A stretch of 64,000 bases of DNA. Source: Acidobacteriota bacterium. GTDB taxonomy: Bacteria > Acidobacteriota > Vicinamibacteria > Vicinamibacterales > UBA823. A model generated the notes under the pieces. It was not told the DNA's origin and ran no database searches. It was given only the letters and a program-made list of their open reading frames with translations. The stretch spans positions 188,275 through 252,274 of the forward strand of contig PCAU01000008.1 in the NCBI GenBank assembly GCA_002730735.1, read 5' to 3'. The position numbers and the translations under genes were made by a program. Numbering within the stretch: position 1 is the stretch's first letter; each line of letters begins with the position of its first letter. Shown one piece after another: positions 9,990-48,787 of the stretch.

Positions 9990-11000
9990 ATGAATAGCTT
10001 TGGGTTTCGTCTACACCGCGTCTGCATTTCGATGACCTTCTTGGCACTGCTAGCGGTGCCTGGCTCGATAGAAGCCCAACCCGCAAGTTGGGGCCCGATG
10101 AGCCCGTCTATGGAGGACGTACCGTATCCGCATCCGGTGTCGTATCTGTCGTTTAGGATGTACGGCCAAGACGTCCGAATGGCCTACATGGACGTCTCAC
10201 CAGCCACCGCGGCGAATGGACAGACGGTTGTGCTCCTCCATGGTGGAAACTTCTTTGCAGAATATTGGAAGGGCACCATTGAGGTGTTGCGACATGAGGG
10301 GTTTCGCATCCTAGCAACTGACCGGATTGGTTACGGGCGCTCGTCAAAACCGCTCGTCCCTTACACGCTGCACGACATGGCTCTCCACATCAAGATGCTG
10401 CTTGATGAGAAGGGCATCCCCGAAGCTGCCATTGTGGGGCACTCGATGGGCGGAATGGTAACGTCGCGTTTCGCGTTTTCGTATCCTGAAATGACAACTC
10501 ATGCGGTGATGGTCAACCAGGTCGGACTAACCGACCCGCGTCTGGGTCGTCCATGGCGTGATCCCGAAGAACAGTACCAGGGCACCTTAAATCGAAACTA
10601 CGAGTCGATCCGACGTGGAATCGAGAGGTACTTTGTCACCTGGAGTTCGGAATATGAGTATTTCATTCGTTTGCAATACGGCTGGACGCAAAGTGGTGAC
10701 TGGCCGCAGTTCGCGATGGTGCGCAGTAGAATCTCACAGGTGTTCTACGCTGATCCGGTCGTCTATGACTGGCCCCACATTAGAGCTAAGACGCTGGTCA
10801 TCGGTGGAGCCGAAGATGGACCAAACTTTCCCGCCTTGGCGAAAAATGTTGCCGACACAATTCCGAATGCTGAGTTGATACTAATTGACAATGTTGGACA
10901 CATTCCACACCTAGAGGCACCCGAACAATTTCATCCTGCACTGATTCGGTTTTTGAAATCAGACCCGATCCCTTACACAGAGGAACAGGGACAGCCGTAA
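9990..11000 (+). CDS. Secreted alpha/beta hydrolase
   Basis: A 336-residue alpha/beta-fold hydrolase with an N-terminal signal peptide (hydrophobic segment ending GSIEAQ, about residues 13-30). The oxyanion HGGN is near residue 84, the nucleophile Ser is S152 in GHSMGG, an acid lies in GGAEDGPNF and the catalytic His in VGHIPHLEAPEQF. This layout resembles epoxide hydrolase or haloalkane dehalogenase-like esterases, but the substrate cannot be read from the motifs. The ATG is preceded by AGGAGG. The VWA-domain gene begins 10 nt after its stop, so the two are probably co-transcribed. Confidence 0.9.
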   Translation: MNSFGFRLHRVCISMTFLALLAVPGSIEAQPASWGPMSPSMEDVPYPHPVSYLSFRMYGQDVRMAYMDVSPATAANGQTVVLLHGGNFFAEYWKGTIEVLRHEGFRILATDRIGYGRSSKPLVPYTLHDMALHIKMLLDEKGIPEAAIVGHSMGGMVTSRFAFSYPEMTTHAVMVNQVGLTDPRLGRPWRDPEEQYQGTLNRNYESIRRGIERYFVTWSSEYEYFIRLQYGWTQSGDWPQFAMVRSRISQVFYADPVVYDWPHIRAKTLVIGGAEDGPNFPALAKNVADTIPNAELILIDNVGHIPHLEAPEQFHPALIRFLKSDPIPYTEEQGQP

Positions 11001-39705: not shown

Positions 39706-42303
39706 ATGTACTCCAGAATCGGCCGTATTCGGTGCCCAAAATGGGGCCATTGGGATAGCTCACAGCGATTCGGCACGATGTTCCTTACCCTAGTCTGTGC
39801 TGCGGTTCTGGGTTCAACGCCTGTGCTAGGGCAGCCTTCCAGCAGGCCGTATCCATCGGCACAGCACGGTGGGAACTACATGCACAACTACTACTTTTCA
39901 CCGGCGCCAAGCTCTACCCCCTGGGCTCCGAGTTGGTCGCCTGACGGCCGCTGGATTGCGGTCGCCATGAACGGGTCAATTTGGAAAGTCGATCCCGAGA
40001 CCGGGCTCGCGCACGAGCTCAGCTACAACAAAAAATATCACTCAGCACCTGACTGGTCACCTGATGGTCACTGGATCGCCTACACCGCGGATGACGGCGG
40101 CACGACCATTCAGCTTGAAGTCGTGAACGTCAACACCCAGAGAGTCCACACACTGACAAGTGATGAGTTCATCTACACCGACCCCGTCTTTTCTCCTGAC
40201 GGCTTCCAACTCGCCTACGTGTCGACTAAGCCGAACGGCCACTTCAATGTCTATGTCAGGCCGATCCACGACGGGCAGTGGGCCGGAGACGAAATTGCCA
40301 TCACCAAGGACAATTCGTTCGGCCGCGACCGTCTGTACTTCGGAGAGTGGGACATGCACCTAATGCCAGCTTGGATGCCGAACGGAAGAGAGTTGCTGCT
40401 TGTCTCAAATCGTGATGTTCCGTTGGGATCGGGCAATGTCATTCGGTTACCAGTTATTCCATTAGGTATCGAGGAAGCAGAGACGATTCTAGGCGAGCAG
40501 ACACTCTACCGAACGCGCCCAGATGTCTCGATCGATGGCAAGCGGTTGGTCTACTCGTCTACCTCTGGCACAGCTGACCAATTCTCGAATCTTTACGTGC
40601 AACCGACTTCTGGAGGTGAGCCGTACAAGATGACCTTCTTCAACCACGACGCGTTCCACCCGAGATGGTCACCCGATGGTGAGTGGGTCGCCTATGTTTC
40701 CAACGCCAATGGCCTACCGCAGTTGGCCCTACTCGAGACGTATGGCGGTGCACAGCGAAGGCTCGAGATTTCTGACCGTCGTTGGAAGCGACCGATGGGC
40801 ATCCTGTCGTTAAACACTCACGACGGTGCTACCGGTGAAGCAACCGCGGTACGCGTTCACTTAACAGCCAGTGACGGTAAATTTTACGCCCCGACAAACG
40901 CTTACGCGAGGGTAACCGGCGAAGGCGACAGGATTTTTCACTCCCGCGGGACCGCTAGGGTCGAACTGCCAGTCGGCACGGTGAATCTGACCGTGGTAAA
41001 GGGGTTCGAATTTTCCCCGGAAGAGCTAACGGCAGAAATCACGGCCGGGGAGGTCACAAACCTTACGGTCGGAGTCGACCCGTTGACCGACATGGCTGCC
41101 AAAGGCTGGTACAGCGGTTCGACCCATGTTCACATGAATTATGCCGGGAACCTACACAACACACTCGACAACCTGATGATGATGTCTGCCGCCGAGGACC
41201 AGGACATCGTCAATGAGCAGATCGCCAACAAAGACAATCGCATTTTGGACCATCACGTTTTCGTTCCCGGCGGTGGTGCACATCCGATATCCACACCAGA
41301 GCGCATCCTGGTAGTTGGACAGGAATACCGGCCGCCTTTCTATGGCCATGTCTTTATGTTCGGTCTCGAAGATCATTTAATTTCGCCGTTCACAACCGGC
41401 TATGAAGGCACGGCGATCGAGAGCCTGTACCCGAGCAACACCGATATGTTCCTTAAGGCCAAAGCGCAAGGTGCCACGGTCGGTTACGTTCACGCCTTCT
41501 TCGGAAACAGTGACCCCCTCGAAGGGGCACTCGGCGGTGCTAAGGGTTTCATGGTAGATGCGGCGTTGGGTACAACTGACGCCGTTGAGTGGTCTGGCGC
41601 AGGGCGAGCAGGATTCTTTCCCGTATACGCTGCGTGGAACAACGGTCTCCGTGTCACAGCCGTTGGTGGCGAGGATTCCATTAGTAATTTGCACGCGAGT
41701 AAACTGGTTGGGTCGGTGCGCACTTACATCCATACCGGTGAACGCGGCCTAACAATGGACGCTTGGTTCGAGGGACTTCGAGCTGGTCACGCATTCGTGT
41801 CAACCGGTCCACTCGTTGAGTTCACCGTTGATGGAGCCATCCCCGGCGAGACGGTGAACCTGCCCGAGCAAGGCGGCACTGTAGAACTTCGAGCCTGGGT
41901 CAGGTCGATCACCCCAATCGAACGCCTAATACTCGTTTGGAACGGTGATGTTATTGAAGAGGTGCTTTTAGAGGGAAACCGGCACGAGGCCGAAATGTCA
42001 CGCACGCTGTCGGTATCCGGCAGCGGATGGTATCACTTACGTGTTGAGGGCCGCTCCGATGAACGTTTTCCTCTTGACGCTGATTTTGCGCAGGCATTCA
42101 CCAACCCCGTCTGGATAACCGTTGGCGATCACCCGGTTCGGTCGCAAGAGTCTGCTGCCTACTCCTTGCGCTGGATCGATAAGCTACAAGGAATGGCTGA
42201 AGCTTGGCCCGGCTGGCGTTCAGTTCGGGAGCGGTCGCACGTCTTCGAGCAATTCGAACAGGCTCGCCAGGTGTATCGCGGTTTCATTGAAGAGTCACGA
42301 TAG
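39706..42303 (+). CDS. Secreted PD40 propeller fused to CehA/McbA-type metallohydrolase
   Basis: An 865-residue exported two-part protein. After the signal (MFLTLVCAAVLGSTPVLG) comes a TolB/PD40 propeller with many SPDG motifs (SWSPDGRWIAV, DWSPDGHWIAY, FSPDGFQLAY, RWSPDGEWVAY). From about residue 375 the second half begins with an Ig-like segment. It then has a PHP-like CehA/McbA metal-hydrolase region (SGSTHVHMNYAG, then HHVFVPGGGAHP and VGYVHAFFG) and a C-terminal beta-sandwich. AAGGAG precedes the ATG by 9 nt. CehA/McbA enzymes cleave carbamates, but the present protein keeps only part of the familiar motif pattern and the substrate is open. The pairing of a propeller with this fold is common in Acidobacteria. 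Confidence 0.8.
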   Translation: MYSRIGRIRCPKWGHWDSSQRFGTMFLTLVCAAVLGSTPVLGQPSSRPYPSAQHGGNYMHNYYFSPAPSSTPWAPSWSPDGRWIAVAMNGSIWKVDPETGLAHELSYNKKYHSAPDWSPDGHWIAYTADDGGTTIQLEVVNVNTQRVHTLTSDEFIYTDPVFSPDGFQLAYVSTKPNGHFNVYVRPIHDGQWAGDEIAITKDNSFGRDRLYFGEWDMHLMPAWMPNGRELLLVSNRDVPLGSGNVIRLPVIPLGIEEAETILGEQTLYRTRPDVSIDGKRLVYSSTSGTADQFSNLYVQPTSGGEPYKMTFFNHDAFHPRWSPDGEWVAYVSNANGLPQLALLETYGGAQRRLEISDRRWKRPMGILSLNTHDGATGEATAVRVHLTASDGKFYAPTNAYARVTGEGDRIFHSRGTARVELPVGTVNLTVVKGFEFSPEELTAEITAGEVTNLTVGVDPLTDMAAKGWYSGSTHVHMNYAGNLHNTLDNLMMMSAAEDQDIVNEQIANKDNRILDHHVFVPGGGAHPISTPERILVVGQEYRPPFYGHVFMFGLEDHLISPFTTGYEGTAIESLYPSNTDMFLKAKAQGATVGYVHAFFGNSDPLEGALGGAKGFMVDAALGTTDAVEWSGAGRAGFFPVYAAWNNGLRVTAVGGEDSISNLHASKLVGSVRTYIHTGERGLTMDAWFEGLRAGHAFVSTGPLVEFTVDGAIPGETVNLPEQGGTVELRAWVRSITPIERLILVWNGDVIEEVLLEGNRHEAEMSRTLSVSGSGWYHLRVEGRSDERFPLDADFAQAFTNPVWITVGDHPVRSQESAAYSLRWIDKLQGMAEAWPGWRSVRERSHVFEQFEQARQVYRGFIEESR

Positions 42304-43713: not shown

Positions 43714-43834
43714 GTATTAACTGGTAAGTCTACTGTCAAGGACGAGAATCGGTCAACTGTGATCGTTGCCCAAGTTGAGGTGCCAAGTTAAAGTTGTATA
43801 GAGCGAAACCACATCTATACGCGTGAGGCCAACA

Positions 43835-45112
43835 ATGTCTTTACGATCTACCACTATTCATCTCGTATTCTGCTGCGTTGCCCTGCCTCTCATGGTTACG
43901 TCGGTCACGGCTCACCCCGTCGCTCAACAAAACCTGGACGAGAGAGCGCGCGCGTTGCAGAAAGAGACACCGCTAATCGACGGCCATAATGACTTCCCGT
44001 GGGCCTTACGGCAGAACGTTGAACGAGATTTGAATCGGTTGGATATTCGTGTTGCACAGCCGTCAATCCACACCGACATTCCACGATTGCGTGAAGGTGG
44101 GGTCGGTGCCCAGTTTTGGTCGGTCTATGTTCCAGCTAGCTTCGTCGGAGCTGATGCGGTCACGGCGACACTCGAAGAAGTCGACACCGTGCACCAGATG
44201 ATGCGCCGCTATCCCGAAGCGTTCGAACTGGCACTCACGGCTGACGATGTTGAACGAATCTTTCGTGGCGGTAAAGTCGCTTCAATGATGGGCATGGAAG
44301 GCGGCCATTCAATCGATTCTTCGCTAGCAACGCTTCGCATGTTCTACCGGCTCGGTGTCCGCTACATGACACTGACCCATGGCAGTAATGTCCCATGGGC
44401 TGATTCCAGCACCGACGAACCGGTACTTGGTGGACTATCGCGATTCGGCGAGGAGGTCATCCGTGAGATGAATTGGCTCGGCATGCTCATCGACCTGAGC
44501 CATGTCTCGCCTGATACGATGCGGGACGCCCTCCGAATAACTGAAGCCCCGGTCATCTTTTCGCATTCCTCCGCGCGCGCGTTGACTGACGTGCCGCGTA
44601 ACGTGCCAGATGACGTGCTTCGCCTGGTAGCCGAGAATGGCGGTGTCGTAATGGTGACCTTCGTGCCGCAGTTTATCTCGCCTGACGTCGCGGGCCATGG
44701 CCGAGCAGCCGAGGTGGAGGAGTTAAGATTGGAAGCCGCGTATCCTGGCAACGCGAACGCCATCGAAGCCGGAATGCAAACCTGGCTAGAAGCGAATCCG
44801 ACGCCGCGCGCAACGCTCAGCCAGGTCGCCGACCACATCGATCACGTCCGCGACATCGCAGGGCTCGAGCACATCGGTATCGGCAGTGATTTCGACGGAA
44901 TCTCAAGTGTGCCGGTAGGTTTAGAGGATGTGTCGACCTACCCGTCCCTGACGGCCGAACTGCTACGGAGAGGTTACACTGATGAGCACGTGATGGGCAT
45001 TCTCGGCGTAAACGTGCTACGGGTGATGCGTGAAGCCGAAGCGGTCGCCGAACGTCTCCAACGTACACGACCGCCATCACCAACGCTTATCGAACACCTG
45101 GATGGGAGATAG
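43835..45112 (+). CDS. Secreted membrane dipeptidase (M19, renal dipeptidase family)
   Basis: A 425-residue exported dinuclear zinc dipeptidase of the M19 family. A signal peptide (TIHLVFCCVALPLMVTSVTAHP) precedes the barrel with DGHNDFPWAL (zinc His/Asp), EGGHSID (Glu ligand), TLTHGSNVPWADS, DLSHVS and FSHSSARAL (His ligands). M19 enzymes hydrolyse dipeptides, often including L-D or D-containing ones, so it may help recover peptidoglycan- or protein-derived dipeptides. The frame can start from GTG 43823, but GTGAGG lies just before ATG 43835, which is chosen. The TenA-like gene begins 11 nt after its stop; they are likely one transcript. Confidence 0.93.
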   Translation: MSLRSTTIHLVFCCVALPLMVTSVTAHPVAQQNLDERARALQKETPLIDGHNDFPWALRQNVERDLNRLDIRVAQPSIHTDIPRLREGGVGAQFWSVYVPASFVGADAVTATLEEVDTVHQMMRRYPEAFELALTADDVERIFRGGKVASMMGMEGGHSIDSSLATLRMFYRLGVRYMTLTHGSNVPWADSSTDEPVLGGLSRFGEEVIREMNWLGMLIDLSHVSPDTMRDALRITEAPVIFSHSSARALTDVPRNVPDDVLRLVAENGGVVMVTFVPQFISPDVAGHGRAAEVEELRLEAAYPGNANAIEAGMQTWLEANPTPRATLSQVADHIDHVRDIAGLEHIGIGSDFDGISSVPVGLEDVSTYPSLTAELLRRGYTDEHVMGILGVNVLRVMREAEAVAERLQRTRPPSPTLIEHLDGR

Positions 45113-45123
45113 CGAGATTCCTA

Positions 45124-45879
45124 ATGAAATTCTGGATAAGCAAGATGTGGGAGAGTCGGTTACTTTCTGCCGCCATGATTGCAATGTGCTCGGCCACACA
45201 ACCTTTGGCAGCCCAAACATTTTCCGACGAGCTGTGGAATGCTAACCAGAATGTGTACGATGCGATCCTCGAACACCCGTTTTTGACCGGAATGCAGGAT
45301 GGGTCACTTCCTCCTGATATCTTCGCCTCCTACGTCGTTCAGGACACCCTTTATTTGCAAGCTTTCGCGGACGCACTAACAACTGCGGCCACCAAGGCTC
45401 CCGACCGGGCATGGGCCAAACAGTTAGCTGCCGATGCACAGGATAGCCTTGAAGAAGAGCGTCGGTTACATAGAGAGGTCTTTGCGAGTCTCGGTATAAG
45501 TGAGGCGGAGGCTGCGAAGATTGATTCGACGCCAAACGCTTTTGCTTACGCTAACTTCCTCATCGTCACCGCTGACCACCGCCCATTTGCAGAAGTGATC
45601 GCAGCCTTATTGCCGTGCTATTGGATTTACTGGGAGGTTGGGAAAGCGCTCCAATCCAGTGGTTCGCCGAACCCACTCTACCAAGCCTGGATCGACACCT
45701 ATATTGCGCCTGGATACGCGGACACCGTTACCGCCGTCATCCAAATGGTCGACTCAGTGGCCGCGACCGCCGATGCAACGACCCGGGAACGGATGCACGA
45801 ACACTTCCGCCGTAGCAGCAGTTACGAGTGGCTGTTCTGGGACGCAGCCTATCGGAGCCAGACCTGGCCATCTAGATAA
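45124..45879 (+). CDS. Exported TenA/thiaminase II-like protein
   Basis: A 251-residue TenA-family enzyme with a 30-residue N-terminal extension that looks like a signal peptide (basic start, hydrophobic LLSAAMIAM run, cleavage near PLAAQT). TenA proteins are otherwise cytosolic and hydrolyse aminopyrimidine or thiamine for salvage. All catalytic positions of the Bacillus TenA set are kept with a constant +30 offset: Asp74, Tyr77, Tyr142, Cys165, Tyr169, Tyr193 and Glu235 (known: D44, Y47, Y112, C135, Y139, Y163, E205). The Cys sits in LLPCYWIYWEVG. It follows the secreted dipeptidase by 11 nt, so both may act in the periplasm. This supports a secreted thiamine-degrading or aminopyrimidine-salvaging activity. 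Confidence 0.88.
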   Translation: MKFWISKMWESRLLSAAMIAMCSATQPLAAQTFSDELWNANQNVYDAILEHPFLTGMQDGSLPPDIFASYVVQDTLYLQAFADALTTAATKAPDRAWAKQLAADAQDSLEEERRLHREVFASLGISEAEAAKIDSTPNAFAYANFLIVTADHRPFAEVIAALLPCYWIYWEVGKALQSSGSPNPLYQAWIDTYIAPGYADTVTAVIQMVDSVAATADATTRERMHEHFRRSSSYEWLFWDAAYRSQTWPSR

Positions 45880-45895
45880 CCTGGATATGGAGCAC

Positions 45896-48787
45896 TTAAC
45901 CCGCCTGACGTGACGGCTTGGTAGGCTTACGCTTACTCTGAGCGAAGAACCGATCACAGGCTTGTGTGAACCGCTTGGTTATACGTTTTCCCTCCTCACC
46001 GTATGGCGGTGGGAGCCGCTTCCACTCTAGCTGAACCCGCTTGGCTTCTTCCACGCTCGCACGACGCTCGGCCGCAGGATCGACCTTGGCACCCATCGTA
46101 TTGGCAGCTAGCGTCTCACGCCAACTGCTGGCTAGAAGCTCGGCTGGAGATAATTCGGTCTTAGTATCCACCTTGTCCGACACGAGCAGACTCTCAATCC
46201 GTTCACACAGCAGCTCCATCCTCTGTCGGCTCACCTCCGGATCGAGGTCCGTATCATGAAATGCCTCGGGAAACCTCTCGACGAGCCTACCGATCGAATC
46301 ATGGAATCTGGAGTTGAGCTGCCGGGCACGCTGTTCCGGCAATCCATCAGCCTGCCCCCACTGACGACGAACGGCTGACACTTGGTCTGCCATATCCTCC
46401 GGTGGGGTTGGCGACGCCTCGCCTTTGGCAACTGATTCGAGAGGAAGAAGTGCTTCAAGCCTTGCGCACAACGTCTCACGAGCAGCAATCTGGTCAGCCA
46501 GCCGCGCTTCTTCCTGCTCGGTCAACCTTTCCGAAACTTTCGTGCAGGCAACTCGAAACCGTTGCCAGATTGCATCCGACTTGCTTCGCTTGACGGGCCC
46601 AATCCTCCGCCATTCCATCTCAAGCCGTCTAACCGTTTTTACTGCTTCAGCATCAGCCGAATCGGCTAACGCTTCAGCTTGTTTGCAGAGCGCTTCCTTA
46701 TGGGAGTAGTTCTTTGCCCAGACCTCCTTCTGTTGATTGAGATTTGCTTTACGTCGTTCAAAAAACTGGTCGCAAGCTCCACGAAACCGCTTCCAGGTCG
46801 CTTGTGAGTGCTTCCTTGGCACTCCACCGATGGCCTTCCATACGGCCTGTAACTCCACGATACGCGCCGCCGTCTTGAGCCAATCGGTCGATGTCACCAA
46901 TGCTTCAACCTGCTCACACAGCGCTATCTTCTTTATTAGATTTGCCTTCCTAGCTTTGGCTTGCTCTGCAAAATATGTTGCGCACCTCGCATAAGCCTGA
47001 TCATGGGCAGTCTTGAAGCGCTGCCAAAGCTCAGCAGCTCGCTCACGAGGCACCGTCGCAACGGTTTTCCACTGGGCAACGACCTCACGCAACTCACGTG
47101 CTACCTCAGCCAAGTCTTCACGGTCGGCTAACGCCTCAACACGTTGACAAAGTTCTTCTTGGACATTTACATTTGCCCAGCGCCTCCAGGACTCGATCTC
47201 ACGAAGCTCATACAGCTTCGGATGGAGCATCTTCTGCAATGCTTTCAACCGCGCCTCAAATGAAGTACGGTCGTGTTTTGTTGGCAAGGCCGGTGTATGC
47301 TCGAGTGCCTTGCGGACGTCTCGGTAGCCGCGCTCCACCTGCTTCAATGTCATCACAGGCGAAACGGTGAGCGCCTCAAGCTGATCGCAACGCTGCGTCA
47401 ACCGCGAGAGATTAATCCGACGCCGTTCAGTTTCTGAAGCGCGTATAGCTTCTTTCTTCGTGCGCAACGCATCGTTGATCGCATGGACCCGACCTCGGAG
47501 CCCCTCTGTCCAAGAACCTTCAAGCCTCGGCCATCCCTTCTTTAAAGACGGCCAGGTCGATGAGACCTCGTCAAGAGCGCCCGCGGCAACCTTCGCTTCT
47601 ATCGATTCGAGATCCTTTTCGACCTGGTGTCGCCAGGAGAGAATCTCACTGAACATTTCATGACGCCTGAGCGCTGAGGCACATCCATCGTCGAACCGTC
47701 TCGTCAGTCCAGAGCTTTCCTCGACGCTTAACAACTCTGCAGCCGGTAACACATCCCAAGCCGTCTTTGCCGACTCCACCTCCGCCGGCACATCTTTACC
47801 CTCAGCGCGCTCGACACACTCGCATAGGGTGACCCGTGGCGCAGCCTGCTCGGCCCGCTTCTTGCGTCGCAGAGCCTCATCCGCCTGAGACCGATGATGC
47901 TCGTCAATACGTTTTCTTAGTACGGTCACCGCGGTCACGAATCGATTCGAGCAACCGTCTTCGGATTGATCGCCTCCGCCTAGATTAGACCAGGCGCTCT
48001 CCGCTTCGCGCAGTCCATCGATAACAACCGACCAGTCTTCAGAACCACTCAGACCTTCAACCCGTTCACAGAGTTCCACACGCTTGGCTTCGCTGTCAGC
48101 ATCAGCACCGGCTACTATTTCTCGTTCCTTGACCACTGCTCTTGCTCGCCGGGCCACAATCTTATTCTTGGCACGCAAGGCGATTGCAGCTAAACCACGA
48201 GCTGCATCTGTGTTTGACGGCGGCGCTTCAGCCAATCGGCTAAACGCAGTAAGGGCAACATCCTTGTGATCGCTCTTTATTGCCACCGCGATAAGTTCAC
48301 CGGTCTCATCGGTGCTAAGCCTTGAAAGCGCTTCAAGGCGTACGCCGTTATAGCCAGCGCGGCGCGCCAACCCACCGAGCAATTTAACTTCGGTCACCCG
48401 TGTCAAAGCTTCGGTGGCAATCGACTCATGGTCGGCGGCACGTGCCACATCAGCAAGGTCCCGTTGATCGGTAAGCGCCCTGAGTGCAGTAACGCCAATC
48501 GCGACATCGTTGGTGGTTGTTACTAGATCGACCAATATAGCGGCTGCCGTCGCGCGCACCATTTCATCCGCTTCTTCACGCACAATCGCCGTCAGCGCCT
48601 CGAGATCGTCCAGACGCTCAACTGCTACCTGACGCACTTTCGCGTCGACATCGCTTCTCAAAATTTCAAGCAGGATTTCGTCCGTATCCTCATCATCAGC
48701 AAGCTGCCGCACAGCCGCAACGCGAACCGCTGGGTCTTCGTGCTTCCACTCTGGGTTAGGCCGGATCTTATCGAGGATGCTCATCAA
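45896..48787 (-). CDS. HEAT-repeat plus DUF349 tandem-repeat protein
   Basis: A 963-residue cytosolic helical protein. Residues about 15-215 are HEAT-type repeats (pattern VR.AAV..L.D). The rest is built from tandem DUF349-type helical units of about 70-80 residues, most opening with an LC..(V/A/I/L)E.L motif (LCERVEGL, LCECVERA, LCQRVEAL, LCEQVEAL, LCKQAEAL, LCARLEAL, LCERIESL) and carrying a W..I..V/RA.LW.RF.A.CD segment. DUF349 proteins are little studied; links to stress or stringent response have been proposed elsewhere. No signal peptide. It is convergent with the TenA gene; both stops are within 20 nt. A role in protein-protein scaffolding is only a guess. Confidence 0.82.
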   Translation of the reverse strand: MMSILDKIRPNPEWKHEDPAVRVAAVRQLADDEDTDEILLEILRSDVDAKVRQVAVERLDDLEALTAIVREEADEMVRATAAAILVDLVTTTNDVAIGVTALRALTDQRDLADVARAADHESIATEALTRVTEVKLLGGLARRAGYNGVRLEALSRLSTDETGELIAVAIKSDHKDVALTAFSRLAEAPPSNTDAARGLAAIALRAKNKIVARRARAVVKEREIVAGADADSEAKRVELCERVEGLSGSEDWSVVIDGLREAESAWSNLGGGDQSEDGCSNRFVTAVTVLRKRIDEHHRSQADEALRRKKRAEQAAPRVTLCECVERAEGKDVPAEVESAKTAWDVLPAAELLSVEESSGLTRRFDDGCASALRRHEMFSEILSWRHQVEKDLESIEAKVAAGALDEVSSTWPSLKKGWPRLEGSWTEGLRGRVHAINDALRTKKEAIRASETERRRINLSRLTQRCDQLEALTVSPVMTLKQVERGYRDVRKALEHTPALPTKHDRTSFEARLKALQKMLHPKLYELREIESWRRWANVNVQEELCQRVEALADREDLAEVARELREVVAQWKTVATVPRERAAELWQRFKTAHDQAYARCATYFAEQAKARKANLIKKIALCEQVEALVTSTDWLKTAARIVELQAVWKAIGGVPRKHSQATWKRFRGACDQFFERRKANLNQQKEVWAKNYSHKEALCKQAEALADSADAEAVKTVRRLEMEWRRIGPVKRSKSDAIWQRFRVACTKVSERLTEQEEARLADQIAARETLCARLEALLPLESVAKGEASPTPPEDMADQVSAVRRQWGQADGLPEQRARQLNSRFHDSIGRLVERFPEAFHDTDLDPEVSRQRMELLCERIESLLVSDKVDTKTELSPAELLASSWRETLAANTMGAKVDPAAERRASVEEAKRVQLEWKRLPPPYGEEGKRITKRFTQACDRFFAQSKRKPTKPSRQAG

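Follow-up and report, generated by a model that had tools for sequence, protein, structure and literature searches.

TenA (thiaminase II) is usually regarded as a salvage enzyme that works inside the cell on substrates taken up beforehand. The TenA of Bacillus subtilis (PDB 1yaf, 1yak and 2qcx) is cytosolic and begins at the fold, without a signal peptide. Marine plankton use the thiamine breakdown pyrimidines AmMP and FAMP via TenA_C and TenA_E (PMC10470507, PMC5635689), and these papers nowhere mention a signal peptide or the periplasm for TenA. According to PMC11452348, B1 auxotrophy among marine microorganisms most often takes the form of a need for exogenous pyrimidine. Outside the cell, thiamine is known to be degraded by thiaminase I, an extracellular enzyme whose product has been suggested to feed thiamine salvage (PMC5627462), and which is described as secreted in myxobacterial vesicles (PMC10499793). 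Thiaminase I (Paenibacillus thiaminolyticus; the myxobacterial vesicle form) has in common with the protein described below a catalytic cysteine and, if our reading is correct, export and thiamine degradation, but its fold is unrelated and resembles that of periplasmic binding proteins (PMC5627462), and it carries out base exchange with a nucleophile instead of hydrolysis. Closer in kind is BT_3146 (BtTenA) of Bacteroides thetaiotaomicron, which breaks down thiamin in vitro and for which an enrichment in extracellular vesicles is reported (PMC10277260); the main text of that paper does not mention a signal peptide. In its structures 2a2m and 2a2o, chain residue 34 aligns with residue 29 of our model and the cysteine is Cys164, a numbering that implies some 30 residues ahead of the BtTenA fold as well.

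We analysed a stretch of 64,000 nucleotides from an acidobacterial genome (hereafter the window), in which a tenA gene with a signal-like N-terminal extension lies among the following features:

43823..45112, + strand: M19 membrane-dipeptidase-like protein (PF01244, E 2.8e-122) with its own signal-like N-terminus
45124..45879, + strand: tenA, an intact ORF of 251 aa with an ATG start; thiaminase II, TenA_C-like, nucleophile Cys165
45124..45213, + strand: predicted Sec signal peptide, residues 1-30 (n-region 1-12, h-region approximately 13-22, c-region ending L-A-A^Q31)
45214..45876, + strand: mature TenA domain, residues 31-251, with C165 as its single cysteine
45896..48787, - strand: DUF349 repeat protein of 963 aa (PF03993 in at least four stretches), convergent with tenA

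The product of tenA is a genuine TenA_C-type thiaminase II with a complete listed active site. It matched Pfam PF03070 with an E-value of 1.5e-40 (139.6 bits against a cut-off of 22 bits) and NCBIfam TIGR04306 (salvage_TenA) with 149.9 bits, above the equivalog cut-off of 130. The active-site residues of B. subtilis TenA, which shows 38% identity, we take to be D44, Y47, Y112, C135, Y139, Y163 and E205; in the alignment these correspond to D74, Y77, Y142, C165, Y169, Y193 and E235 of the window protein, at a constant offset of +30. C165 therefore occupies the position of the nucleophilic cysteine by which TenA_C is recognised. An AlphaFold model built on a 51-sequence alignment had a mean pLDDT of 88, with the fold predicted confidently from residue 31 or so onwards and with residues 1-27 disordered (pLDDT below 50). 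Among solved structures, B. subtilis TenA comes nearest (Z 32-33; Z 32.7 corresponds to an rmsd of 1.3 over 218 residues), and the top matches include TenA bound to HMP and to formylaminopyrimidine. UndA (Z 20.0), PqqC (Z 18.8) and the heme oxygenase HmuO (Z 18.1) scored lower, which places this heme-oxygenase-like helical bundle nearest to thiaminase II. BT_3146 likewise has the TenA fold, a catalytic Cys and an equivalent of Glu205 and is found outside the cytosol, but it shows 21% identity to the window TenA and belongs to a separate TenA sublineage. Since its active site is intact, the exported protein is likely to be an active TenA. The first-pass annotation had claimed a TenA fold with all seven positions at +30 and had proposed structure prediction as a check; profiles, alignment and model bear this out.

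The sequence preceding the fold, MKFWISKMWESRLLSAAMIAMCSATQPLAA^QTF, has a positive n-region, an uncharged and moderately hydrophobic core and an A-x-A-type c-region. A home-made signal-peptide rule (n-h-c organisation, A-x-A-type cleavage site) accepts this N-terminus, although among the 43 window ORFs it also passed two apparent false positives with Rossmann-like N-termini. The comparative evidence is stronger than this rule. Three relatives in the same GTDB family, UBA823 (L029), NP133 (L022) and UBA2161 (L023), encode TenAs with their own divergent signal peptides, which end in EAQ, AGQ and TGQ, respectively, and are followed directly by the fold start TF[AST]DELW; the Q at +1 after A-x-A or its equivalent is conserved in all four family members. 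By the rule and this conserved architecture the window TenA has the attributes of a Sec-exported protein, and export, as the first-pass annotation had supposed from the extension, appears likely. A lipoprotein was considered and rejected: the lipobox [LVI][ASTVI][GAS]C does not occur, the sole cysteine of the signal region being C22 in I-A-M-C, with M at position -1. Elsewhere in the window, [A/G]-Q is strongly favoured at the predicted signal peptidase site of the secreted-looking products of the ORFs at 9990, 11010, 12146, 25650, 29130, 34610, 35770, 39706 and 49054, among which the ORF at 39706-42303 joins WD40-like/TolB-like repeats to a CehA/McbA-type metallohydrolase domain behind a signal-like N-terminus.

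The distribution of such extensions was surveyed in 396 genomes of the phylum and by a scan of 84,980 species, from which the best 80 of more than 560 matches were fetched. Among the fetched loci at least 17 species carry a signal-like extension, namely 16 Acidobacteriota and one member of the Nitrospirota (L099); the first-pass annotation had raised the prospect that homologues might all lack it. The active site DYYCYYE is invariant in all 17. In 15/17 of the signal-bearing TenAs the mature chain has the nucleophile as its only cysteine, against 29/80 of the others with one cysteine (Fisher p 1e-4, kinship ignored), a bias that fits an oxidising compartment and could also simply be inherited. 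An unrooted tree of mature domains contains a branch (support 98) that separates the signal-bearing TenAs of the 16 Acidobacteriota, together with that of Bryobacteraceae bacterium SKYG38 (L070), from the rest; a single gain and a single loss of the signal could account for this. A clade of the 16 alone was rejected (p-AU 0.003). The L070 protein is nested in the signal-bearing group and lacks a signal-like extension, possibly reflecting a return to the cytosol. The L099 protein falls elsewhere, on a long branch, and is apparently an independent gain of export; this TenA of Nitrospirae bacterium UBA2233 (L099, 5428-6525) has a Tat-like N-terminus, TLPRRAFLAQTLG... / STLPRRAFLAQTLGAMGAILAPSP... 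Viral carriage was rejected, no relative having been found in viral contigs.

The thiamine pathway was inventoried in G350, a 97% complete genome of the same species whose TenA is 100% identical to that of the window and is its sole match to the A1 model. ThiG, ThiD, ThiE and ThiL are present, while ThiC was not detected. Neither was a thiamine pyrophosphokinase (TPK), which is missing from all 20 panel genomes as well, so that its absence is not specific. ThiK gave no match above cut-off, and G350 contains no TPP riboswitch. From this genotype a need for exogenous pyrimidine is predicted, and the species is apparently auxotrophic for HMP; intact thiamine would perhaps be usable only by cutting. 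ThiC is present in 326/396 genomes of the phylum, including family members G005 and G007, and is also missing from G000, G004, G001 and G003. The latter two belong to the genus of the window (81-85% complete); in these ThiC, ThiG and TenA were not detected and ThiD and ThiE are kept; the genus may have been losing B1 synthesis step by step. Over the whole sample ThiC is missing from 7/17 genomes with a signal-bearing TenA versus 65/385 others (p 0.019, kinship ignored), a modest excess which, the genomes being incomplete and related, is suggestive only. As the remaining 10/17 keep ThiC, the role of the exported protein cannot be solely to rescue ThiC loss.

The neighbourhood of the gene offers no hint of its function. 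The ATG of tenA sits 11 nt past the stop codon of the M19 dipeptidase ORF, and the two genes are probably co-transcribed; the first-pass annotation had given this spacing, which was found as described, and had called the dipeptidase secreted. The link itself is not conserved. UBA823 has no M19 gene between FTR1 and tenA, NP133 and UBA2161 have none beside tenA, and none adjoins tenA in the other exported-TenA loci inspected; a conserved operon partnership was therefore rejected. Within the family, synteny around tenA comprises FTR1, DUF349, cyclophilin and topoisomerase-like subunit genes, the DUF349 gene being conserved downstream of tenA and having no evident functional link to it. No gene family recurs near signal-bearing tenA beyond this synteny in the inspected loci; L027 and L028 share two neighbours beyond it. 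No thiamine gene or transporter was recognised near tenA in the loci inspected, and Rfam models, including the TPP riboswitch RF00059, gave no match in the window.

From these data we infer the following pathway, to which we assign a probability of roughly 0.6. TenA_C would be made with a Sec signal peptide, cleaved at A30^Q31 and set free in the periplasm, where, acting on thiamine or on products of its breakdown, it would liberate the pyrimidine HMP. After uptake through a transporter, HMP would serve ThiD, ThiE and ThiL, making up for the missing ThiC and for an apparent inability to pyrophosphorylate intact thiamine. Among single roles for the exported TenA, HMP salvage fits best, judging by the genotype and by what the family is known to do. 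The species would resemble the plankton in which AmMP and FAMP, pyrimidines from thiamine breakdown, are used through TenA. It would also resemble SAR11 and other marine HMP auxotrophs, in which ThiC is missing and the pathway is otherwise kept; SAR11 imports ready-made HMP, whereas the exported TenA could generate it (PMC11452348 for SAR11).

This pathway presupposes that the protein leaves the cytosol and is released on the other side. Translation could begin within the hydrophobic stretch, one candidate being the in-frame TTG at codon 28, which would yield MAAQTFSDELW..., a near-canonical start for a cytosolic TenA; alternatively, the extension might be translated and not exported. A strong ribosome-binding site before the first ATG is not obvious, and the first-pass annotation had itself named an internal start near residue 32 as an objection. 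That objection retains some force for the window gene because of its TTG, but it fails in L022, L023 and L029, where the codons from the end of the hydrophobic core to the fold include no ATG, GTG or TTG and internal initiation therefore cannot account for the extension. Moreover, 16 acidobacterial species share the signal architecture, while some 80 other TenAs yielded a single candidate start that scored comparably as a signal, a spurious TTG in L052. We consider a cytosolic TenA improbable. Slightly less probable still is an uncleaved signal anchor that would tether the enzyme to the inner membrane, facing the periplasm. Such an arrangement would agree with a hydrophobic core followed by the fold, and the cleavage site comes from the home-made rule; yet this core is short and moderately hydrophobic (KD ~2.3), the conserved Q follows A-x-A or its equivalent throughout the family, and the same [A/G]-Q ending is common to many secreted-looking proteins of the window.

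Even if TenA is free in the periplasm, its main task might be to degrade environmental thiamine or a related pyrimidine, either starving competitors or acting on another compound. The genomes that combine a signal-bearing TenA with ThiC speak for a main role other than salvage for the host itself, as does the packaging of the Bacteroides enzyme in vesicles (PMC10277260), and PMC10499793 offers a parallel, namely a myxobacterial vesicle-secreted thiaminase I that restrains an oomycete by scavenging thiamine. The signal, however, targets the periplasm, with no sign of secretion across the outer membrane, and the apparent HMP auxotrophy of the window species fits salvage. We therefore regard a mainly degradative role as unlikely, and periplasmic HMP salvage as the preferred reading.

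A periplasmic thiamine or aminopyrimidine hydrolase had been put forward in the first-pass annotation as a new location for this chemistry. In the open-licence literature we found no report of a periplasmic or secreted TenA, or of one with a signal peptide. As worded, the suggestion is too strong: exported thiaminase I (PMC5627462, PMC10499793) and vesicle-borne BT_3146 (PMC10277260) precede it, the latter being a case of TenA beyond the cytosol, in the distant sublineage of BtTenA. A tentative extension of the salvage pathway, which we rate at somewhat below even odds, is that an acidobacterial lineage moved TenA to the periplasm and so gained a B1 scavenging step outside the inner membrane, such that thiamine and the products of its breakdown are cut before uptake and the pyrimidine alone is imported, and that growth of species without ThiC, the present one included, depends on this arrangement. 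If the conserved exported branch is real, the periplasm of some bacteria is a site where thiamine breakdown products are processed. A periplasmic TenA would alter which transporters are needed and who can use which B1 vitamer, and would change the view of how bacteria lacking ThiC meet their need for B1.
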